From NCBI RefSeq assembly GCF_027622855.1, contig NZ_JAPZVR010000005.1, positions 62,001 to 126,000 on the forward strand: a stretch of 64,000 nt of DNA. Direction: 5' to 3'. Source of the DNA: Glycomyces algeriensis (lineage in GTDB: Bacteria > Actinomycetota > Actinomycetes > Mycobacteriales > Micromonosporaceae). The translations under genes and the position numbers were made by a program. Numbering within the stretch: the stretch's first letter is position 1; each line of letters starts with the position of its first letter. Shown here piece after piece: positions 18,608-27,930 of this stretch. The notes beneath the pieces were generated by a model. The model was given only the letters and a program-made list of their open reading frames with translations, was not told where the DNA came from and did no database searches.

Positions 18608-19045
18608 GTGAGCATGCAGCATTCAGCGAGGCAGGCGCCGCACGACACCGACGCGCCGGAGCCGGGTCGCGCCCTGCCGCGCCAGGAGCGCAGCGCACCG
18701 CCCCGCCGCTCGCGACATACTGCGGAGACCGCCTCGGCCGCGTCCGATCCGGCCTCGATGGTGGTGCCGATCCCCGCCCGCTCGCGCCGTTCCCGCCGCG
18801 AGGAGCCCTCGAAGCTCTTCTCGCTGGAGGAGCCGCCGCCGCTCGACGCGCCCCTGGGGATCACCGAGATCATGGGCTGGTCCCTCGCCGCCGCGATGTG
18901 GCGCGACCACCTGCCCGAGCAGCTGCTCGGCATCGACTGCGCCTCGTGCGACCAGGCCTGGCCGTGCGACACGTGGAAGATCGCGGACGACCTCCTCACC
19001 GAGTGCTGCGAAGCCGCCGGCGAGGCCGCCGTCAAGGCCCGCTAA
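18608..19045 (+). CDS. small protein with C-terminal cysteine cluster
   Basis: A 145-residue protein not assigned to a named family. It starts at GTG after a GAGGAG site (the ATG two codons later is possible). The first about 70 residues are Arg/Ser/Pro/Ala-rich and look disordered. The C-terminal half is compact, with CASCDQAWPCDTW and TECC, six Cys in about 30 residues, suggesting a metal site or disulfides in a cytoplasmic protein. It lies directly upstream of the dnaK control region in the same direction. No function is proposed. Confidence 0.7.
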   Translation: MSMQHSARQAPHDTDAPEPGRALPRQERSAPPRRSRHTAETASAASDPASMVVPIPARSRRSRREEPSKLFSLEEPPPLDAPLGITEIMGWSLAAAMWRDHLPEQLLGIDCASCDQAWPCDTWKIADDLLTECCEAAGEAAVKAR

Positions 19046-19085
19046 GCCCCGCAAGGCCCCGCGCATGCTGACCCCGCGCAATCGA

Positions 19086-19112
19086 AAAGTTGAGTCGACC
19101 CGACTCAACTTT
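19086..19112. promoter_or_regulatory. HAIR-type HspR operator, distal
   Basis: Perfect inverted repeat AAAGTTGAGTCG-N3-complement. The inner TTGAGT-N7-ACTCAA matches the HAIR element bound by HspR upstream of actinobacterial dnaK. Confidence 0.88.
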
Positions 19113-19143
19113 CGTGCGTTTCATCACATTTCCCATGATCCAC

Positions 19144-19172
19144 TTGACAGTAGATGCCTGCCGTTCGAACAT
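19144..19172 (+). promoter_or_regulatory. dnaK operon promoter
   Basis: TTGACA (19144-19149), a 17-bp spacer and GAACAT (19167-19172). The proximal HAIR box begins at the end of the -10, fitting repression by HspR. Confidence 0.65.
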
Positions 19173-19190
19173 TGAGTCTATCCGGCTCAA
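19172..19190. promoter_or_regulatory. HAIR-type HspR operator, proximal
   Basis: TTGAGT-N7-GCTCAA, one mismatch from the symmetric form, about 85 bp downstream of the distal box and overlapping the transcription start region. Confidence 0.8.
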
Positions 19191-19278
19191 CTTGGTTCGG
19201 GGTTCCCGCCCGGCCGCTTGAGACAGAGACTCGTCTCCAATCCCGGAGACATCTGTTCGACTACGTCAGGAGATCAAC

Positions 19279-21120
19279 ATGGCACGTGCGGTCGGTATCG
19301 ACCTCGGCACGACGAACTCCGTGGTCAGCGTCCTCGAAGGCGGGGAAGCCACGGTCATCACCAATGCTGAGGGGGCCAGGACCACCCCGTCCATCGTCGC
19401 GTTCGCGAAGAACGGCGAAGTGCTCGTCGGCGAGGTGGCCAAGCGTCAGGCGGTCACGAACCCGGACCGCACGATCCGCTCGGTCAAGCGCTACATCGGC
19501 ACGGACTGGGCCGTCGACATCGACGGCAAGTCCTACACCGCGCAGGAGATCAGCGCGCGCATCCTCATGAAGCTCAAGCGCGACGCCGAGGCGTACCTGG
19601 GCGAGAACGTGACCGACGCGGTCGTCACCGTGCCGGCCTACTTCTCGGACGCGCAGCGCACCGCCACCAAGGAGGCGGGCGAGATCGCGGGCCTCAACGT
19701 CCTGCGCATCATCAACGAGCCCACTTCGGCGGCCCTCTCCTACGGCCTCGACAAGGGCGAGGAAGAGCAGACGATCCTCGTCTTCGACCTCGGCGGCGGC
19801 ACCTTCGACGTGTCCCTGCTGGAGATCGCGGACGGCGTCATCCAGGTCAAGGCCACCTCCGGTGACAACCACCTCGGCGGCGACGACTGGGACGACCGGG
19901 TCATCCAGCACCTGGTCAAGACCTTCAACGGCCAGTACGGCGTGGACCTGTCCAAGGACAAGATGGCCATGCAGCGCCTCAAGGAGGCCGCCGAGAAGGC
20001 CAAGATCGAGCTCTCCAGCGCCACCAACACCTCGATCAACCTGCCCTACATCACGGCGGGCCCCGACGGGCCGCTGCACCTCGACGTCTCGCTCTCGCGC
20101 GCCGAGTTCGAGCAGATGACCTCCGACCTCCTCGACCGCTGCAAGAAGCCGTTCGAGCAGGCCGTGAAGGACGCCGGGATCAACGTCTCCGAGGTCGACC
20201 ACGTCATCCTCGTCGGCGGCTCGACCCGCATGCCGGCCGTCTCGGACCTGGTCAAGCGCCTCATCGGCCGCGACGCGCACAAGGGCGTCAACCCTGACGA
20301 GGTCGTCGCCGTCGGCGCGACCCTCCAGGCCGGCGTCCTCAAGGGCGAAGTCAAGGACGTGCTGCTCCTCGACGTCACGCCGCTGAGCCTCGGCATCGAG
20401 ACCAAGGGCGGGATCTTCACCAAGCTCATCGAGCGCAACACCACGATCCCGACCAAGCGCTCGGAGGTCTTCACGACCGCCGACGACAACCAGCCGTCGG
20501 TGCTCATCCAGGTGTTCCAGGGCGAGCGCGAGATCGCGGCCTACAACAAGAAGCTCGGCACCTTCGAGCTCACCGGTCTGCCGCCGGCGCCGCGCGGCGT
20601 CCCGCAGATCGAGGTCACCTTCGACATCGACGCGAACGGCATCGTGAACGTCTCCGCGAAGGACTCCGCGACCGGCAAGGCCCAGTCGATGACCATCTCG
20701 GGCGGTTCCAGCCTGGCCCAGGACGACATCCAGCGGATGATGGCCGAGGCCCAGGAGCACGCCGAGGAGGACCGGCAGCGCAAGGAGGAGGCCGAGGCCC
20801 GCAACATGGGCGAGTCGCTGGTCTACCAGACCGAGAAGCTGCTGGCCGAGAACGGCGACAAGGTCCCCGAGGACCTCAAGGGCCGCATCAACGACGCCAC
20901 CGGTTCCCTGAAGGGCGCCTTGGGCGGCAGCGACATCGAGGCGATCAAGACCGCCACGGAGGAGCTCTCCAAGGTCAGCCAGGAGGCCGGGCAGGCCATG
21001 TACGCGGCCGCCCAGGCGGAGCAGGGCACGCAGCCCTCCGCCGCGCCGAACGCCGACGCCCAGGACTCCGAGACGATCGTCGACGCCGAGATCGTCGACG
21101 ACGACAAGGACCAGAAGTGA
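19279..21120 (+). CDS. dnaK: Hsp70 chaperone DnaK
   Basis: A 613-residue Hsp70. It binds and releases unfolded segments in an ATP-driven cycle with DnaJ and GrpE in the cytoplasm. The start ATG follows AGGAG. ATPase domain 1-360, with GIDLGTTNS at the start, [10 protein letters not shown] at about 170 and GGSTRMP at about 313; substrate-binding beta domain about 365-480; helical lid; acidic tail ending DDDKDQK. First gene of a coupled operon with two HAIR boxes; its TGA overlaps the grpE GTG. Confidence 0.99.
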
Positions 21121-21893
21121 CGGACGAAGGCAACAAGGACGCCGAAGACGAGCGTCCCGGCGACTCCGACGCGCAGTCGGGCGACGCCGAGGACGAGCTG
21201 ACCGTGGACGACATCCTCGCGGCCGCTTCGGACGACGGCCAGGCCGCGGACGACGCGGTGGCCGTCCTCCAGTCGACGGTCGAGGAGCGCACGCGGGACC
21301 TGCAGCGGATCACCGCCGAGTTCCAGAACTACCGCAAGCGCGTCGAGCGGGACAAGGCCCGCTCCGGCGAGCTCGCGACGGCCGCGGTGCTGCAGAGCCT
21401 GCTGCCGGTGCTGGACGACATGGACCGGGCGCGGGACCACGGGGACCTCAACGGCCCCTTCGGTTCCGTGGCCGAGCAGCTTGTCAACGCGCTCGCGAAG
21501 CACGGCCTCGAGTCCTTCGGGACCAAGGGCGACGCGTTCGACCCGCAGATCCACGAGGCCGTGGCGCACATGCAGATGCCGGGAGTCGACGGACCGACCT
21601 GCATCGACGTGATGCGCTCGGGCTACCGGCTCGGCGACAAGCTCCTGCGCCCCGCCCTCGTGGCGGTCGCGGAGCCGACGGACGACCCGGAACCCGCCGC
21701 GGCCGAAGAGCCGGAGACCATCGAGGCCGAGGCCGAAGTGGTGGAGGCGGCAGCGGACGACACCGCGGGCGACGAGCCCGAGGAGTCCGCCGAGGAGACC
21801 GCGGCGGCCGCCGAGGCCGAACCGTCCGAGGGCGACGAGCCCGCGGGCAAGACCAAGAAGAAGAAAGACAAGGGCGACAAGGACTCCTAGGTC
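21117..21893 (+). CDS. grpE: nucleotide exchange factor GrpE with long C-terminal tail
   Basis: A 257-residue protein whose stop is TAG at 21888-21890. It starts at GTG inside the dnaK stop (GTGA). An acidic head (1-40) is followed by the GrpE coiled coil ([16 protein letters not shown]) and beta-wing domain to about 185, including [15 protein letters not shown]. The last about 70 residues are unusual: an acidic, Ala/Glu-rich stretch ending in a Lys-rich run ([13 protein letters not shown]). GrpE releases ADP from DnaK; the tail has no known function and is probably disordered. Confidence 0.96.
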
Positions 21894-21929
21894 CCCGCCC
21901 GAACGATAAGCAGGTAGAGGAGGCGTCCC

Positions 21930-23063
21930 GTGGCATCGCAGGAATGGCTTGAGAAGGACTTCTACGCCATACTCGGCGTGCCGCAGGACGCCTCCAAAAA
22001 GGACATCGAGCGGGCGTACCGCAAGCTCGCGCGCGAGCTGCACCCCGACCACAACCCCGACCCGGCCGCCGAGGAGCGCTTCAAAGGCGTCTCGGAGGCC
22101 TATTCGGTGCTCCACGACGACAAGGCGCGCAAGGAGTACGACCAGATCCAGTTGATGAAGTCCGGCAGGGGCGGCTTCGGCGGGATGCCGGGCGGCTCCG
22201 GCGGCGTCAACCTCGAGGACCTGTTCGGCAACACGGGCAGTTCGGGCGGTTTCTCGGACATCTTCGGGGACCTGTTCCGCGGCGGCGGCAGCGGCGGGGC
22301 CCATCGGCGCCGCAGCGGCGCCCAGCGCGGCAACGACCTGCGCACCCACATCACCCTCGACTTCGCCGACGCCGTGAAGGGCACCACGACCGAGCTGCGG
22401 ATGCGCGCGCCGGGCGAGTGCGGCACCTGCCACGGCTCGGGCGCGAAGCCCGGTTCGGCGCCGAGCACCTGCTCCCGCTGCAACGGCCGGGGCCTGATCA
22501 CCGAGAACCAGGGCGCGTTCAGCTTCGCGCAGCCCTGCCCCGAATGCGAGGGCACGGGCACCGTGGTCACCGACCCGTGCCCCGACTGCGGCGGCACGGG
22601 TGCGACCACGCAGGACCGCATCATCACCGTGCGCGTCCCGGTGGGCATCGGCGACGGCCAGTCGATCCGGCTGGCGGGCCGCGGCGCCCCCGGCGAGCGC
22701 GGCGGACCTCCGGGCGACCTGCTCGTGAAGGTGGCCGTGCGGACCCACCCCCTGTTCGCCCGCGACGGCGACAACGTGACCGTGCGACTGCCGGTCTCCT
22801 TCCCCGAGGCCGCCATGGGCGCCAAGGTGAAGGTGCCGACGCTCGACGGCCCCGTGACGCTGAAGGTCCCCGAGGGCACCCCGACCGGGCGCGTGCTGCG
22901 CGTCAAGGGCCGCGGCGTGCCCGGCAAGGGCGACCTGCTGGTCACCGTGGACGTCGAAGTGCCGCATGCACTCTCGCCCGAGGCCCGCGAGGCCCTGGAG
23001 AAGTACGCGGCCGCCGCCCCGCCGGTCGACCGCTCCAAGCTGGAAGAGCTGACGGGCCAATGA
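21930..23063 (+). CDS. dnaJ: co-chaperone DnaJ (type I)
   Basis: A 377-residue J-protein that brings substrates to DnaK and triggers ATP hydrolysis. J domain 8-75 with the HPD motif; Gly/Phe-rich linker with GGSGG runs to about 135; four zinc-binding CxxCxGxG repeats (CGTCHGSG, CSRCNGRG, CPECEGTG, CPDCGGTG) about 155-220; C-terminal substrate domain. It is 39 bp after grpE with an AGGAGG site. Its TGA overlaps the ATG of the next gene (ATGA), which here is not hspR but the repeat protein described next. Confidence 0.98.
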   Translation: MASQEWLEKDFYAILGVPQDASKKDIERAYRKLARELHPDHNPDPAAEERFKGVSEAYSVLHDDKARKEYDQIQLMKSGRGGFGGMPGGSGGVNLEDLFGNTGSSGGFSDIFGDLFRGGGSGGAHRRRSGAQRGNDLRTHITLDFADAVKGTTTELRMRAPGECGTCHGSGAKPGSAPSTCSRCNGRGLITENQGAFSFAQPCPECEGTGTVVTDPCPDCGGTGATTQDRIITVRVPVGIGDGQSIRLAGRGAPGERGGPPGDLLVKVAVRTHPLFARDGDNVTVRLPVSFPEAAMGAKVKVPTLDGPVTLKVPEGTPTGRVLRVKGRGVPGKGDLLVTVDVEVPHALSPEAREALEKYAAAAPPVDRSKLEELTGQ

Positions 23064-24016
23064 TCTCCCTGGCGCGGCAAGCGAACCGCAGCCCGGCGCG
23101 AGAGCGCCGGGAGGTTCCGGGTGCCGCGCGAACGGCCCGCCCGGAAGCGGGCGTTGCTTCGCCGAACGCGGGCAACCGCCCTGAGACGAATGCCAATACG
23201 CGGGTGGCGTCGCAGCACGCGAAACGCGACGCGGCACCCGCGAACGGAGTGCTCCGCGCCGCCGCCTGGGCAGTGCGCCTCGCAGCGATTGCTCCGGCGC
23301 CGAAATCGGATGACCGCACCAAGCTGACTGCGACCGACGCGCCCGCTCGGCGCGCGAACCGCGACTCGACGCGGGTCCGCTCGTCGTCTGCGAATGCCGA
23401 TCGCACGGTACGCCCGGAGACGATCGTGCCGGTACCGAATGCGGGCGGGCTAGCGACTTCGAGTCGAACCGGCTCGCCGTCGAACTCATTGGCACACAAC
23501 GAGTCTCACGACTCGACGCGCGTGCGCTCGACCTCGCGGATCGCCGCTCGGCCGACCCGCCCGGCGGCGGTCGCTCCTGCGCCGGAGGCGGGCGGCCCCG
23601 CGACTTCGAGTCGAACCGGCTCGCCGTCGAGGTCGTCGGCATGGAACGAGATCCACGACCCGGTGGGCGTGCGACCGACCTCGCGGAGTACCGCGCGAAC
23701 GGCACGCCCGGAAGCGGGAGCCCTTGCACCGAGGACAGGCGACCGCACGACGCGGCAGGCGAACCGCGACGCCGCACCGCCCCGCCGAGTGCTTCGCGGC
23801 ACCGTTCGGGGGGTACGTCTCTCACTGGGCGTTACGACGCCGCCGGCGGGCGACCGCACGATGTCGTCTGAAGCATCGGCGGCTCGGAACGCGAACGGCG
23901 ACTCTACGCGTGACCGCCGTTTGCGTAGCGACGCCACACGGTTCGGCCGCTCGGCGGTGCTTCTTCCCAGTTCGCTGCCGAACGGCCCGATGCGGGAAGC
24001 GAGGGCAGGGCGATGA
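23060..24016 (+). CDS. repeat protein inside the dnaK operon (unknown)
   Basis: A 318-residue open frame that starts in the dnaJ stop (ATGA) and ends in the start of the next gene (ATGA). After MISLA it can be divided into seven degenerate repeats of 37-49 residues (residues 6, 52, 97, 146, 195, 232 and 275 onward). They follow a common pattern: an ANRDSTRVRS-like opening, an R-rich middle, RPxxxxPxP, AGG, then a Ser/Thr/Gly tail; repeats 3 and 4 share ATSSRTGSPS. It is very basic, without membrane segments or a signal peptide, and likely disordered. GC at third positions is lower than in its neighbours. All repeat lengths keep frame, which favours coding on this strand; the antisense frame is interrupted near 23500. 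No homolog is recognised. Decayed or spacer DNA is the alternative. Confidence 0.6.
   Translation: MISLARQANRSPARERREVPGAARTARPEAGVASPNAGNRPETNANTRVASQHAKRDAAPANGVLRAAAWAVRLAAIAPAPKSDDRTKLTATDAPARRANRDSTRVRSSSANADRTVRPETIVPVPNAGGLATSSRTGSPSNSLAHNESHDSTRVRSTSRIAARPTRPAAVAPAPEAGGPATSSRTGSPSRSSAWNEIHDPVGVRPTSRSTARTARPEAGALAPRTGDRTTRQANRDAAPPRRVLRGTVRGVRLSLGVTTPPAGDRTMSSEASAARNANGDSTRDRRLRSDATRFGRSAVLLPSSLPNGPMREARAGR
23075..24013 (+). repeat. seven degenerate repeats of 111-147 bp
   Basis: Units begin near 23075, 23213, 23348, 23495, 23642, 23753 and 23882. The clearest pair is units 3 and 4, which share a stretch starting GCGACTTCGAGTCGAACCGG and continuing through CTCGCCGTCGA. Units 2 and 6 share the arrangement GCGAA-CGCGACGC-GCACC, then GTGCT-CGC. 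Every unit is a multiple of three bases. Confidence 0.75.
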
Positions 24017-24864
24017 AGGTGCCAGGAGTGCAGCGCGTGCGGGACCGCTTCGCGCGCCCGCCGCGTGAGGAAGCCGAGATCCGCGTGCCCGTACGCTTCC
24101 GGGTCGCGAGAGCGGTCGGCACGGCCGCTAGCGCCATCCCCGAGTCCCGCGCCGTGAAGATGGGGACCGCTGTGGCCACGGTCGTCGCGGCGCACCCCAA
24201 CATCGTGCGCGCCGGACTCACCGCCGCCAGCGCCGTCCCGGTGCTGCGCCCGTATGTGAAGGTCGCGGTCGCCGCGACGAGCGTCATCGCGGTGGCGCGG
24301 CGCCTCGCGGAGGCGAGGTCCGCGGCGACGGACGTCGTCGCGACGCTGCGCAGCCGCCCCGGTTCGCCCGGCATGGCCTACGCGGGCAACGAATTCGGTC
24401 TCGGCTCCGCTGCGGAGCCGATCGTCCTGGAGAGCGAGAAGGCCGCGTTGCCGGCGAGCCCGGCCGCGTCCGCTGAGCCGGTGGTCCCCGCCGCGCAGCC
24501 CGCTGACCCGGCCGCCGCCGCGCCTCCCGTGGTCCCGGCGCCATCCGCGGAACCGACGGCGGTCCCTGGGCAATCCGCGAATCCGTCGGCCGACACCGGC
24601 CGGTTCGCGAACCCCGCGTCCTACCTTTCCCGGTCCGCAGGCCCGGTGCCCGACGCCGCCCGGTACGCGAACCCCGCCGCTTTCCGCGCCCAGTCCGCAA
24701 GCCCGGCGATTCCCGCTCAAGCGAGCGACAGCACAGCCGCCGAACCGGACCGGCCGGAAGAAGCCGACCGCCCGACGTTGTTGCAACGAATGCACCGGCG
24801 AATGCCGCGTGCGTCCCGCGGCACGGACGCGGCGACGACCACCGAGCGAGGGAGGGAACCGTGA
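24013..24864 (+). CDS. Ala/Pro-rich protein between dnaJ and hspR (unknown)
   Basis: A 283-residue protein coupled on both sides: its ATG lies in the stop of the repeat gene (ATGA) and its TGA in the GTG of hspR (GTGA). Residues 1-120 are ordered-looking, basic and rich in Ala/Val, with helical stretches such as AVATVVAAHPNIVRAGL and VKVAVAATSVIAVARRLAE that could be amphipathic or membrane-associated. Residues about 130-255 are Pro/Ala-rich with loose repeats around RFANPASYLSRSAGP and RYANPAAFRAQSASP. The end is charged. Third positions are very GC-rich, so it is convincingly coding. No family is recognised. The place in the operon suggests expression with the chaperones and a role beside them, which is inference. 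Confidence 0.78.
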   Translation: MKVPGVQRVRDRFARPPREEAEIRVPVRFRVARAVGTAASAIPESRAVKMGTAVATVVAAHPNIVRAGLTAASAVPVLRPYVKVAVAATSVIAVARRLAEARSAATDVVATLRSRPGSPGMAYAGNEFGLGSAAEPIVLESEKAALPASPAASAEPVVPAAQPADPAAAAPPVVPAPSAEPTAVPGQSANPSADTGRFANPASYLSRSAGPVPDAARYANPAAFRAQSASPAIPAQASDSTAAEPDRPEEADRPTLLQRMHRRMPRASRGTDAATTTERGREP

Positions 24865-25382
24865 CCGCTTCGAACCGCACCGGCGGCCCCGACGATCGCG
24901 CTGCCGGCCGTGCCGCCGACATGAGCGCGCGCCCGCAGGTGCGCATCGAGATCGCCTACCACCGGCGCCTCCCCGGGGGCGGCGCCGACGAGATCGACTA
25001 CGACGCCAAGATCCTCGCGATCTCGGCCGCCGCGGAGATGGCCGGGATGCACCCGCAGACCCTCCGCCAGTACGACCGCCTCGGGCTCGTCGAGCCCGCC
25101 CGCACGCCGGGCGGCGGCCGCCGCTACTCCGTCCGCGACGTGACGCGGCTGCGGGAGGTCCAGCGCCTGTCCCAGGACGAGGGCGTGAACCTCGCGGGCA
25201 TCAAGCGGATCATGGACCTCGAGCGCGAGGTCCAGGCCGTGCGCGCCGAAGCCGGTGCCGCTGTGGAGGAGCTCGCGCGCGAGCTCCAGCGGGCCCGCGC
25301 GCAACTCGCGGAGCTGCAGGCGATGGCCGGTCCGTTCGGCCGCTCAACTGACATCGTCTTGTGGCGGGGCGAACAAAGATGA
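24861..25382 (+). CDS. hspR: MerR-family heat-shock repressor HspR
   Basis: A 173-residue HspR. A non-conserved head (1-50) is followed by the MerR winged helix (residues about 50-115, with AISAAAEMAGMHPQTLRQYDRLGLVEPART) and a coiled-coil region. It normally binds HAIR sites with DnaK as corepressor and shuts off dnaK; two HAIR boxes stand upstream of dnaK here. It starts with GTG inside the preceding stop; an ATG 20 codons on (24921) is possible. Last gene of the operon. Confidence 0.96.
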   Translation: MTASNRTGGPDDRAAGRAADMSARPQVRIEIAYHRRLPGGGADEIDYDAKILAISAAAEMAGMHPQTLRQYDRLGLVEPARTPGGGRRYSVRDVTRLREVQRLSQDEGVNLAGIKRIMDLEREVQAVRAEAGAAVEELARELQRARAQLAELQAMAGPFGRSTDIVLWRGEQR

Positions 25383-25421
25383 CCGCTTTCCCCGCCCTTC
25401 CGTCCCGTTAAGATCGGCCCC

Positions 25422-25553
25422 ATGCGACGAAGAAGACGACGCTCGGTCGTGGCGCGCAAGCCGCGCCGCAGCCGACATCGAAGTCCCCGGCCTGGTGCGG
25501 GCGATCCGCTCCGGGCCTCCGGTCCGCACCTGAGGCGTGATCGATGCTCATAG
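25422..25553 (+). other. possible leaderless Arg-rich small ORF
   Basis: ATG at 25422 lies 7 bp after a -10-like TAAGAT (25409-25414), the layout of leaderless actinobacterial messages. It encodes 43 residues starting MRRRRRRSVVARKPRRSRH and overlaps the start of the CNNM gene by 10 bp. It could be a leader peptide, or simply open frame in the 5' region of the CNNM operon. Confidence 0.25.
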
Positions 25554-26914
25554 TCACCGGCCTGGTCATCATCCTGGCCGTCACCGCGGCCACGGGCTTC
25601 TTCGTGGCGCTCGAATTCGCCTACACCGCCGTCGACCGGTCCCGCCTCGAGGACATCGCGAACGACGGCGACGCCCGCCGCGCCGCCCGGGCCCGCCGGG
25701 CGCTCAAGATCTGCTCGTCCCTGTCGTTCGCGCTGTCGGGCGCGCAGCTGGGCATCACCGTCACCGCGCTCTTCGTCGGCTTCTTCGCCGAGCCGTACCT
25801 CGGCCAGGGCCTCGCCGACCTCCTCGGCGTCGTCGGCGTCCCCGCGGGCGTCTCGGTCACCATCGGCGTCACCTTCGCGTTCCTGTTCGCGAACGTCGTC
25901 CAGATGATCCTCGGCGAGCTCGGCCCCAAGAACCTCGCGATCGCCCGCACCGAGGCGCTCGCGCTCTCCCTCGCGGCGCCCACCCACGCGTACCTCACGA
26001 TCTGCGGACCGATCATCCGCTTCTTCGACGCCGCCTCCACGAAACTGCTGGGGCTCTTCGGCATCCAGCCCGTGGAGGAGCTCGAGCACAACGCCACCCC
26101 CGAAGACCTGCACCGCATCATCGACGTCTCCCGCGACGAGGGCGCCCTCGACCGGGGCCTCTCCGAACTCCTCGACCGCGGCCTCGACTTCTCCGCCACC
26201 GTGGCCGACCAGGCCATGACCCCGCGCGTCAACGTCCAGACCCTCCCGGCCGAGGCCACTGTGGCCGAAGCGGTCGAGGCGCTCGCCGGGGGCCACTCGC
26301 GCTTCCCGGTCGTGGGCGACGACGTGGACGACCTGCGCGGCGTGGTCGGCCTCAACCAGGTCATCGGCGTCCCCCGCGAGGACCGCGGCACGGTCCGCGT
26401 CGGCGAGATCGCCGACCCGGCCCTCCTTGTGCCCGCCTCGCTTCCGCTGCCCACGCTGCTCGAGCGCATGCGGAGCCAGCACCGCCAGTTCGCGTGCGTC
26501 GTCGACGAGTTCGGCGGCTTCGCCGGCATCGTCACCCTCGAAGACCTCGCCGAGGAGCTCGTGGGCGAGATCCGCGACGAGCAGGACCGCTTCGAGGCCG
26601 TCCCGGTCTCGCTCGCGGGCGGCGCCTGGCTCATCCCCGGGCGCTGGCGCATCGACGAGGTCGCCGACGCCACTGGCCTCCAACTTCCTGAAGGCGAGCA
26701 CTACGAGACGATCGCCGGGCTCGTCATGTCCCAGCTCGGCCGCATCGCCCACCCCGGCGACACGGTCGATGTGGACACCGTGCCCCAGGTCGGCGACGAC
26801 CCGGCGGGCGCCGAGAACGCGCCCCGCCGGGTGCGGATGGTCGTCGTCTCCTGCTCCCGCCATGTGCCGCAAGCGGTCGAGCTGCGGCCCGAGCCCGTGG
26901 AGGTGGACGCGTGA
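25544..26914 (+). CDS. CNNM/CBS membrane protein (HlyC/CorC family) 1
   Basis: A 456-residue protein. CNNM (DUF21) membrane domain about 1-195 with four hydrophobic segments and the GELGPKNLAI motif; a pair of CBS domains about 205-335; CorC/HlyC transporter-associated domain about 350-435. The family is linked to magnesium, cobalt or other ion efflux and is often called hemolysin-like without evidence of lysis. Overlaps the next gene as GTGA. Third positions favour C, unlike the second half of the following gene. Confidence 0.9.
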   Translation: MLIVTGLVIILAVTAATGFFVALEFAYTAVDRSRLEDIANDGDARRAARARRALKICSSLSFALSGAQLGITVTALFVGFFAEPYLGQGLADLLGVVGVPAGVSVTIGVTFAFLFANVVQMILGELGPKNLAIARTEALALSLAAPTHAYLTICGPIIRFFDAASTKLLGLFGIQPVEELEHNATPEDLHRIIDVSRDEGALDRGLSELLDRGLDFSATVADQAMTPRVNVQTLPAEATVAEAVEALAGGHSRFPVVGDDVDDLRGVVGLNQVIGVPREDRGTVRVGEIADPALLVPASLPLPTLLERMRSQHRQFACVVDEFGGFAGIVTLEDLAEELVGEIRDEQDRFEAVPVSLAGGAWLIPGRWRIDEVADATGLQLPEGEHYETIAGLVMSQLGRIAHPGDTVDVDTVPQVGDDPAGAENAPRRVRMVVVSCSRHVPQAVELRPEPVEVDA

Positions 26915-27930
26915 GCACCGGTCCCGCACTGCTGATCTCCGCACTCCTCCTGGCCGCCAACGCCTTCTTCGTGGCCGCCGAGTTCGCTCTCGTGGCCTCC
27001 CGGCAGCACCGGCTCGAACAGGACGGCTCGCGCGCCGCCCGGGCCGCCCTGCGCGGCACCAGGAACCTCTCGCTCATGCTCGCGGGCGCCCAACTGGGCA
27101 TCACCGCGTGCACCGTCGGCCTGGGCGCGCTCGCCGAGCCGGCGCTGGCGCACGCGATCGAGGTCCCGCTGGAGGCCATGGGCCTCGAACGGGCGGCGCA
27201 TCCGATCGCGTTCACGATCGCGCTGCTCATCGTCGTGTTCCTGCACATGGTGGTGGGCGAGATGATGCCGAAGTCGTGGGCGATCACCCACCCGGAGGCG
27301 TCGGCGATGGCGCTGATCTGGCCGTTCACCGGGTACGTGTGGCTGACGAAGCCGATCCTGCTGGGGCTCAACCACGGTGCGAACGCGATCCTCAGGGCGC
27401 TCAAGGTCGAACCGGCCGACGAGAAGGCCCAGGCGCACTCGCCGGAGGAGCTGCGGTACCTGCTGCGGTCCTCGGCCGAGGCGGGGATGCTCGGCGAGCC
27501 GGAGCACCAGATGCTCACGCACGCCATCGAAGTGCAGCGCCGCCCGGTGGGCGAGCTGTCGATCCCGTGGCCGGAGGTCGTGACGATCGCGGCCGGGTCG
27601 ACGGCGGTGCAGGCGGAGGAGCGCAGCCGGGACACGGGCCGCTCGCGCCTGGTCGTGGTGGACGCGGAGGAGCGCCCGGTCGGCCTCGTCCACGTGCGGG
27701 AGGCCGTACAGGCCGAGCCGGGGGCCGCGGTCGCCGACATGGCCGCCGCGCCGCTGCTGGTCGACGCCGAGACCACGGTCGCCGCGGCCGTGACGCTCAT
27801 GCGGCGCCAGCGCGCCCAGCTCGCGCTCGTCACGGGCCCGGACCGCGAGGTCACCGGTCTGGTCGCCATGGAGGACCTCTTGGAGGAGATCATGGGCGAC
27901 TTCGAGGACGAGACCGACCGGGCCCGCTAA
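26911..27930 (+). CDS. CNNM/CBS membrane protein 2
   Basis: A 339-residue partner of the previous gene. CNNM domain about 1-190, with GEMMPKSWAI replacing the usual GELGPKNLAI, and CBS pair about 205-335. It lacks the C-terminal CorC domain that its neighbour has. Paired, coupled genes of this type are common in actinobacteria, and the two products probably act together in the membrane. It starts at GTG within the upstream stop. Confidence 0.9.
   Translation: MSTGPALLISALLLAANAFFVAAEFALVASRQHRLEQDGSRAARAALRGTRNLSLMLAGAQLGITACTVGLGALAEPALAHAIEVPLEAMGLERAAHPIAFTIALLIVVFLHMVVGEMMPKSWAITHPEASAMALIWPFTGYVWLTKPILLGLNHGANAILRALKVEPADEKAQAHSPEELRYLLRSSAEAGMLGEPEHQMLTHAIEVQRRPVGELSIPWPEVVTIAAGSTAVQAEERSRDTGRSRLVVVDAEERPVGLVHVREAVQAEPGAAVADMAAAPLLVDAETTVAAAVTLMRRQRAQLALVTGPDREVTGLVAMEDLLEEIMGDFEDETDRAR

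Follow-up and report, generated by a model that had tools for sequence, protein, structure and literature searches.

A probable translated relay between dnaJ and hspR in Glycomyces, with an orphan core in one clade

The actinobacterial dnaK-grpE-dnaJ-hspR operon is controlled by HspR through HAIR sites, and the locus of the soil bacterial genus Glycomyces resembles it in gene order, in the presence of HAIR upstream of dnaK and in its terminal MerR-type HspR. It differs in the spacing of its last two genes: dnaJ and hspR are 40–1797 nt apart in Glycomyces, whereas the junction was direct (hspR starting –30 to +10 nt from the dnaJ stop) in 95 of the 120 junctions scored outside the genus. The outside sample comprised 122 loci, two of which were unscorable; 62 were among the matches listed and 60 were chosen by hand from the order genomes that gave a match (151 of 160). 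Termination-reinitiation coupling at NTGA or TGATG is a second relevant system, and it too involves 4- or 1-nt overlaps between co-directional operon genes, as found at every joint from dnaJ to hspR in the window (the whole 64,000-nt stretch of Glycomyces algeriensis DNA analyzed here). The difference is that the middle 'gene' of Glycomyces mostly encodes no conserved protein and ranges from 15 to 467 codons over the genus (318 + 283 in the window). A third is provided by mycobacterial MIRUs: according to part of a review (PMC12548453), a MIRU ORF sits at the start codon and is coupled with 4-nt spacing, serving expression rather than its product. The internal ORF of Glycomyces likewise overlaps flanking stop and start codons. 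However, MIRUs are described in that part of the review as repetitive and apparently mobile, whereas the Glycomyces linkers tested are single-copy and their growth looks like tandem duplication. A MIRU-like mobile repeat was therefore rejected for the three linkers tested (ORF1 of the window, G005 and G006), each of which is single-copy, short matches apart.

The window retains the gene order of the HspR-controlled dnaK operon, with grpE assigned by synteny. Its features are as follows.

19090..19108, + strand: perfect HAIR-type inverted repeat, TTGAGT-N7-ACTCAA, upstream of dnaK
19172..19190, + strand: another HAIR-type site, 82 bp further downstream, with one mismatch
19279..21120, + strand: dnaK (Pfam HSP70, E 2.5e-245)
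21117..21890, + strand: grpE, an ORF named from synteny; position and junction conserved; GTGA overlap with dnaK
21930..23063, + strand: dnaJ (Pfam DnaJ, DnaJ_C, CXXCXGXG); last codon and stop CAA-TGA, which yield an ATGA start
23060..24016, + strand: ORF1, 318 codons, first part of the putative relay frame; no coding signal and no protein-level homologue found
24013..24864, + strand: ORF2, 283 codons, second ORF of the putative relay; orphan protein
24861..25382, + strand: hspR (Pfam MerR_1, E 8e-19); GTG start overlaps the ORF2 stop as GTGA

Both inverted repeats were called with a consensus that we take to be that of HAIR. With at most one mismatch allowed, a scan of 18 genus loci recovered both sites in 16 and one or more in 17; the upstream DNA is missing from the remaining locus. 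A consensus scan of the dnaJ-hspR interval of the window returned no promoter-like site and no + strand terminator-like site, no Rfam RNA element reached gathering scores in 18900-25600, and the 3' end of the interval folded little better than shuffles (z –1.34). Given the two HAIR sites and an interval free of promoter-like and + strand terminator-like sites, the proposal of the first-pass annotation that these genes form a single unit under HspR control is plausible. That annotation had also described ORFs of 318 and 283 codons joined by ATGA, ATGA and GTGA; the coordinates confirmed both ORFs and all three joints, each a stop/start overlap of four bases. One ATGA joint alone means little, because the sequence is 71–76% GC, the ORF1 frame stays open further upstream, through dnaJ (22418-24016), and the hspR stop is likewise overlapped. 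Rather, it is the unbroken start-stop overlap that is a meaningful feature of the chain.

We compared the interval in 21 Glycomyces genomes with both genes; one of 22 was left out since its contig begins inside the interval. The 21 intervals had 19 distinct lengths. The ORFs of the window, earlier viewed as inserted genes, are indeed present; they do not represent a fixed insertion but rather the far end of a 45-fold range in interval length within the genus. A start codon overlapped the dnaJ TGA in all 21 genomes (18 ATG, 3 GTG), and in all 21 one frame, or a chain of two, terminated at the hspR start or no more than 20 nt from it. The last stop overlapped the hspR start as GTGA in 17 of the 21 (14 with one frame, three with two chained ORFs); among the other four, it lay 3 nt before the hspR start in two, and 17 or 20 nt before in G. 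harbinensis and G. buryatensis. Every joint from dnaJ to hspR was within 10 nt in 19 of the 21 chains. The last codon of dnaJ ended in A in 18 of the 21; for comparison, of 16 ORFs in the window that end in TGA and were selected by their GC pattern, dnaJ included, 4 did so.

Moreover, interval length was 1 mod 3 in 16 of 21 (binomial p 7e-5; 14 of the 19 distinct lengths, p 4e-4), although all p-values are optimistic, because shared ancestry alone can skew length classes, as seen in the uneven hspR-CNNM gap (classes 0/1/2: 1/8/10). In 16 of the 21 intervals, a single frame began at the dnaJ stop and closed no more than 10 nt from the hspR start. When intervals were shuffled with 0–2 nt trimmed at random, the mean was 6.6 single relays and none of 300 shuffles reached 16; with length fixed, the mean was 12.0 and 5 of 300 reached 16. 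An open frame is expected from composition in short intervals; in those longer than 150 nt, 7 of 10 had a single relay vs. a shuffle mean of 1.3 (0/300). The genus-wide pattern exceeds chance and, with length fixed, does so only modestly.

The two neighboring gaps served as controls in the same genomes. The grpE-dnaJ gap (35–158 nt, length classes 0/1/2: 6/5/7 in 18 loci) carried an overlapping start in 1 of the 18 loci and no relay-like frame. The hspR stop carried an overlapping start in all 19 genus loci (12 ATG), and frames begun there reached the start of the next gene in none of the 19. These controls, and the joint excess of length phase and openness over shuffles in the genus, speak against a compositional by-product, in which open frames would be GC-driven and the overlaps would be relics, now without a role, of an ancient dnaJ/hspR overlap. 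We regard such an origin as quite unlikely, even though ORF1 has no codon signal and a frame that continues across dnaJ, the length-fixed shuffles occasionally match the count, dN/dS was 0.61–1.98 in four short-linker pairs, and gap lengths in linkers were a multiple of 3 at chance level (45 of 131, from pairwise DNA alignments that were poor).

An SD-like AGGGAGGG precedes the GTG start of the window hspR, and by eye a GGAG-type SD stands before hspR in all 21 genomes; hspR could therefore be translated independently. This observation bears on an anti-polarity spacer, that is, an interval translated only to stop Rho from ending the transcript before hspR, which would use its own SD. Long open frames and the lack of a + strand terminator-like site would also be expected of such a spacer; a portion of PMC2687793 mentions polarity in the dnaK operon of S. 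coelicolor, and a portion of PMC12548453 mentions Rho-dependent polarity. Nevertheless, anti-polarity needs neither the stop overlap with the hspR start nor a shared phase in intervals of 40–127 nt, and the grpE-dnaJ gap lacks such a frame. We consider this explanation unlikely.

Instead, the Glycomyces dnaJ-hspR interval is probably a translated relay that holds hspR coupled to dnaJ and that bears an orphan core in one clade. A ribosome ending dnaJ would re-initiate at the overlapping NTGA start, read the linker ORF (the two linked ORFs in the case of the window), stop at the GTGA overlapping the hspR start and be passed to hspR. Such a relay would tie repressor synthesis to chaperone synthesis, like the direct dnaJ/hspR overlap in most other actinobacteria tested. 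The amino acid sequence of the linker would be mostly free, and therefore the linker could lengthen or shorten by local duplication provided that some frame reaches hspR; we infer the direction of this growth from sequence. In the clade that comprises G. algeriensis, G. niveus and G007, the linker carries a 105-residue orphan core that would now be under protein-level selection.

How strictly coupling depends on spacing is described differently in the literature. In a portion of PMC10666635, reporter work is presented in which coupling is nearly lost at gaps of about 20 nt, and two models, ribosome handover and scanning, are set in contradiction. Work cited in a portion of the review mentioned above (PMC12548453) saw coupling unaffected by spacing up to +25 nt, hence the relay may not be needed. 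If the relay reading is correct, Glycomyces provides a set of natural variants in which one coupled gene pair is separated by 19 different spacer lengths (40 to 1797 nt), and this set would directly test coupling by handover vs. scanning.

Outside Glycomyces, a relay-like ORF leading to the chosen start was found in 9 of 25 gapped junctions vs. a shuffle mean of 7.3 (51 of 300 shuffles reached 9). A few Nocardia and Mycolicibacterium loci had given the impression of relays; this was dropped because the wider outside set is not beyond chance, and relays as a general actinobacterial feature were rejected.

Next to the frame itself, the encoded proteins need to be considered. The first-pass annotation regarded ORF1 and ORF2 as two extra coupled genes and looked to related genomes for conservation. 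Over the relatives, it is the frame that is kept genus-wide; the ORF2 core occurs in three species and no protein relative of ORF1 was found. One further feature lies within ORF1:

23362..23655, + strand: tandem pair of 147-nt units (49 codons each, 74% identity), in frame with ORF1

The ORF1 product is rich in R/A/S/P/T (pI 12.0, net charge +30). GC by codon position was 0.69/0.71/0.76 for ORF1 vs. 0.70/0.53/0.94 for dnaJ, and a protein search against the linkers of relatives in three frames (E 1) gave no match; as a gene, ORF1 thus largely falls short on conservation. By blastn against the same linkers there were many short matches on both strands, the best being to G007 (24 nt, E 1e-4, and 66 nt on the minus strand, E 4e-4). 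A collinear 93-nt match (69%, E 4e-4) joins the linker starts of ORF1 and G007, and the first ~90 nt of ORF1 may share ancestry with the beginning of the G007 linker. Within its own genome, ORF1 DNA occupies a single place, short matches apart. The two ORFs are not two ordinary genes: ORF1 is not confirmed as a gene, and what stands of the original claim is the ORF2 core, with purifying selection in one pair. ORF2 contains the following parts.

24085..24402, + strand: conserved core, residues 25-130, common to Glycomyces niveus (G002) and Glycomyces G007
24544..24693, + strand: 30/60-nt tandem repeats encoding the Pro/Ala tail
24775..24864, + strand: 3' end, similar to the short linkers seen in other species; TTGCA ~80 nt ahead of hspR; translation ...ERGREP*

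The N half of ORF2 is rich in Ala/Val (GC3 0.90), and a Pro/Ala tail follows. A profile search found the ~105-residue core in 3 of 354 family genomes. Of eight other, weak profile matches, five have the GC pattern of a gene antisense and three have no coding pattern, two of these with an internal stop. ORF2 had no match in Pfam, NCBIfam, PHROGs, PDB sequences, viral contigs, plasmids or phages, and a scan of genome contigs gave no homologue. For the two closest copies, G. niveus and G007, dN/dS of the core was 0.07 (dnaJ of the same pair: 0.17); against the window copy it was 0.28 and 0.40. Sister species have short or unrelated linkers in place of the core, with no alignable ancestor. A structure model of the core had a pLDDT of 49.6, and for this reason no fold search was made.

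In its three-species spread, in having no homologue found elsewhere and in the purifying selection of one pair, the core resembles bacterial de novo or orphan genes; it differs in that it would have arisen within a translated relay frame of a conserved operon. On sequence grounds it appears lineage-limited within the collections searched and, in one pair, selected at the protein level, both of which are features of de novo genes. Tentatively, a coupling spacer may act as a gene nursery: since hspR could be made only if the frame remains readable, any sequence inserted would immediately be translated under heat-shock control, and in one Glycomyces clade this would have given rise to a new protein domain that is now strongly selected. 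Were this so, it would be a route by which new bacterial proteins are born already expressed, in a frame kept open for another reason. ORF2 might instead be a regular operon gene specific to the lineage, having a heat-shock role of its own and acquired from an unsampled source, the upstream frame being incidental. The low dN/dS of the closest pair and the GC3 of the N half are consistent with such a gene, which is possible yet doubtful: no homologue turned up beyond the three family genomes or in the other collections searched, and such a gene would not account for the frame rule in the 18 species that lack ORF2. The roles first suggested for both products, as chaperone clients or partners, condensate formers or HspR tuners, found no supporting evidence. 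Their position in an HspR operon fits such roles, but ORF1 is unconserved at the protein level, no domain was found and the core model is of low confidence; we judge these roles highly improbable.

The likeness of the ORF2 3' end to the short linkers of other species is our interpretation. We noted that the TTGCA motif, for which we argue no function, recurs in linkers.

On the forward strand of the window, dnaK, grpE, dnaJ, ORF1, ORF2 and hspR follow one another with 4-base overlaps at dnaK/grpE, dnaJ/ORF1, ORF1/ORF2 and ORF2/hspR; grpE and dnaJ lie 39 nt apart. The layout described in the first-pass annotation, two ORFs with overlapping joints between dnaJ and hspR, is exact by ORF coordinates. 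Two HAIR-type sites (inverted-repeat sites of HspR) lie upstream of dnaK. A scan of 18 Glycomyces loci, allowing at most one mismatch, recovered both sites in 16 and one or both in 17; the sequence of the 18th (L066) does not include the upstream DNA. We also noted a second HspR-like protein elsewhere in the window's genome (G000:C2:10857-11132, L002; 49% identity over 93 residues). The features are as follows.

23060-24016, + strand: ORF1, 318 codons
24013-24864, + strand: ORF2, 283 codons
24085-24402, + strand: core, the conserved part of ORF2 (residues 25-130)
25544-26914, after hspR: CNNM/CBS-type gene 1 (Pfam)
26911-27930, after gene 1: CNNM/CBS-type gene 2 (named by position)

The CNNM/CBS-type pair lies 3' of hspR in 19/19 Glycomyces loci, and the 4-nt overlap between its two genes is conserved.

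dnaJ and hspR are on one stretch in 21 of 22 Glycomyces genomes; G019, whose contig starts inside the interval, was left out. The shorter intervals measure 40, 74, 76, 76, 85, 98, 100, 115, 118, 127 and 127 nt, and the longer ones 214, 220, 331, 337, 519, 596, 793, 1108, 1396 and 1797 nt. A start codon overlaps the dnaJ stop in all 21 (18 ATG, 3 GTG). In 14/21, one frame opened by this start codon runs precisely to the hspR start, where its stop forms GTGA; in 2/21 it stops 3 nt short of the hspR start. In 3/21, including the window, the linker consists of two ORFs in a chain, connected through ATGA, TGATG or a 10-nt gap, and the second of them ends on GTGA. In the other 2/21 the frame ends 17 or 20 nt before hspR. 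We refer to such a linker frame, from a start on the dnaJ stop to the hspR start, as a relay, a proposed ribosome handover.

A start codon on a stop codon is not special by itself; a start also overlaps the hspR stop in 19/19 loci. Frames running from the hspR stop to the next gene's start were found in 0/19 loci, with the next start badly placed in L073; with this locus omitted, Fisher's test of 16/21 vs 0/18 gave 1e-6, species being treated as independent. The single relay, present in 16/21 intervals, was compared with shuffled interiors, which yielded a mean of 12.0 when length was fixed (5/300 reached 16) and 6.6 when 0-2 nt were trimmed at random (0/300). Among intervals longer than 150 nt, 7/10 have a single relay, vs 3.0 (1/300) and 1.3 (0/300) in the respective shuffles. 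Interval length is 1 mod 3 in 16/21 (p = 7e-5 if species are independent). Lengths of the grpE-dnaJ gap fall into classes 0/1/2 as 6/5/7 (18 loci); the hspR-CNNM gap is an uneven control, because its classes are 1/8/10 (19 loci). Counting against a relay, only 45/131 gaps in the linker alignments are multiples of 3.

Outside Glycomyces, 122 loci were examined, two of which could not be scored. hspR starts within -30 to +10 nt of the dnaJ stop in 95 of the 120 scored, and the gap is larger in 25. Relay-like ORFs occur in 10/25 of these larger gaps with any start and in 9/25 with the chosen start. The latter compares with a shuffle mean of 7.3. Of four further family genomes read separately, three have no relay (G028, 20 nt; G033, 84 nt; G025, 92-149 nt). 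No relays beyond chance are thus shown in the loci examined outside Glycomyces. The fourth family member, G034 (L058), may carry a relay: its interval is 170-257 nt, depending on start choice, and holds a 56-codon frame with GTG on the dnaJ stop, which stops 3 nt short of the earliest start that hspR could use. Intervals longer than about 260 nt were confined to Glycomyces among the loci examined.

In a dnaJ + hspR tree, seven short-interval species (40-118 nt) group together, and the longest intervals fall in the window's clade. The linker has likely grown from a short ancestor, judging from this tree, although growth is not proven because the split uniting the seven species has a support of only 0.52. 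Local duplication accounts for at least part of the linker's growth in the window: the linker contains tandem units of 147, 27, 30 and 60 nt, all multiples of 3, as well as shorter 19- and 29-nt arrays. Protein sequence is common to the linkers mainly of close species pairs. dN/dS is 0.61, 0.70, 0.87 and 1.98 for short-linker pairs (n = 4), 0.52 and 0.64 for the Glycomyces niveus (G002)/G007 linker outside the core, and 0.37 for the second ORF of G. luteolus vs YM15.

At codon positions 1/2/3, dnaJ has a GC of 0.70/0.53/0.94 and hspR one of 0.78/0.52/0.91. The values are 0.69/0.71/0.76 for ORF1, and 0.74/0.58/0.90 and 0.75/0.72/0.81 for the N and C halves of ORF2. Searches of Pfam, NCBIfam and PHROGs at E 1 gave no match for either ORF. 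Nothing seen in ORF1 points to a real protein; it aligns over its first ~90 nt only, with the linker start of G007, a Glycomyces genome with the ORF2 core (69%, E 4e-4). Of the "two extra coupled genes" proposed previously, ORF1 is not borne out, its codon-position GC carrying no coding signal, and the proposal probably holds for the ORF2 core, for which one pair, G. niveus vs G007, has 95% identity and a dN/dS of 0.07 (0.17 for dnaJ of the same pair).

Relatives of ORF2 were found by sequence search in 2/60 other genomes, and a profile search (E 0.001) matched 11/354 family genomes. The strong matches (E about 1e-68 or better) are the window genome and the two relatives already found by sequence; of the eight weak ones (E 4e-5 to 9e-4), the GC pattern of five is as expected for a gene's antisense strand, and three have no coding pattern. 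Given its matches in two relatives, the low dN/dS in one pair and the codon-position GC, the ORF2 core is probably a real protein. It had no match among PDB sequences, and an AlphaFold model from two sequences is helical with low confidence (pLDDT 49.6). ORF2 was not found in viral contigs, plasmids or phages, and a scan of the genome contigs with ORF2 gave no match. The window core is about 70% identical to those of G. niveus and G007 (dN/dS 0.28 and 0.40), with a dS of 0.56-0.78 vs both relatives, compared with about 0.3 for dnaJ. The dnaJ/hspR tree nevertheless groups the window and G007 together, at a support of 0.87. This divergence beyond the expectation from the dnaJ tree hints at recombination or faster change of the window core.

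How might such an interval be tolerated? Huber et al. (PMC10666635) report that, in six native gene pairs, little coupling is left once the genes are some 20 nt apart. By contrast, the review PMC12548453 cites work in which spacing of up to +25 nt had no effect on coupling; it also describes short ORFs that "deliver" the ribosome to the gene downstream, and mycobacterial interspersed repetitive units (MIRUs) that insert at start codons, where a 4-nt spacing couples their ORF. The dnaJ-hspR interval of Glycomyces resembles these cases, as a spacer that would be tolerated only if read through; reading through by the ribosome would keep dnaJ and hspR coupled. HspR represses its own operon, and the chaperone-to-repressor ratio may need fixing, which may be why coupling would matter. 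Alternatively, the linker might be translated merely to protect the transcript from Rho, a possible reading since hspR has an SD of its own. The underlying principle of a relay is already known. We found no papers with "Glycomyces" and "hspR", and no report of this interval among the matches listed on hspR/dnaJ, coupling, de novo genes, relays and MIRUs; as far as these show, a single-copy, length-variable, genus-wide relay with an orphan domain inside is undescribed.

Upon inspection of the intervals, we noted TTGCA in 16/21 (at 24781 in the window). In 11 it forms linker codons 3-4 (ATG-NNN-TTG-CA), and the remaining copies are mostly 56-80 nt before hspR; TTG is uncommon as a Leu codon (30/865), yet TTGCA recurs. 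Lastly, the frame from the start on the hspR stop (25379-25410 in the window; corresponding site in L062-L079) ends 29 or 32 nt on in 15/19 loci and may be a conserved mini-ORF, about 10 codons long, between the hspR and CNNM genes.
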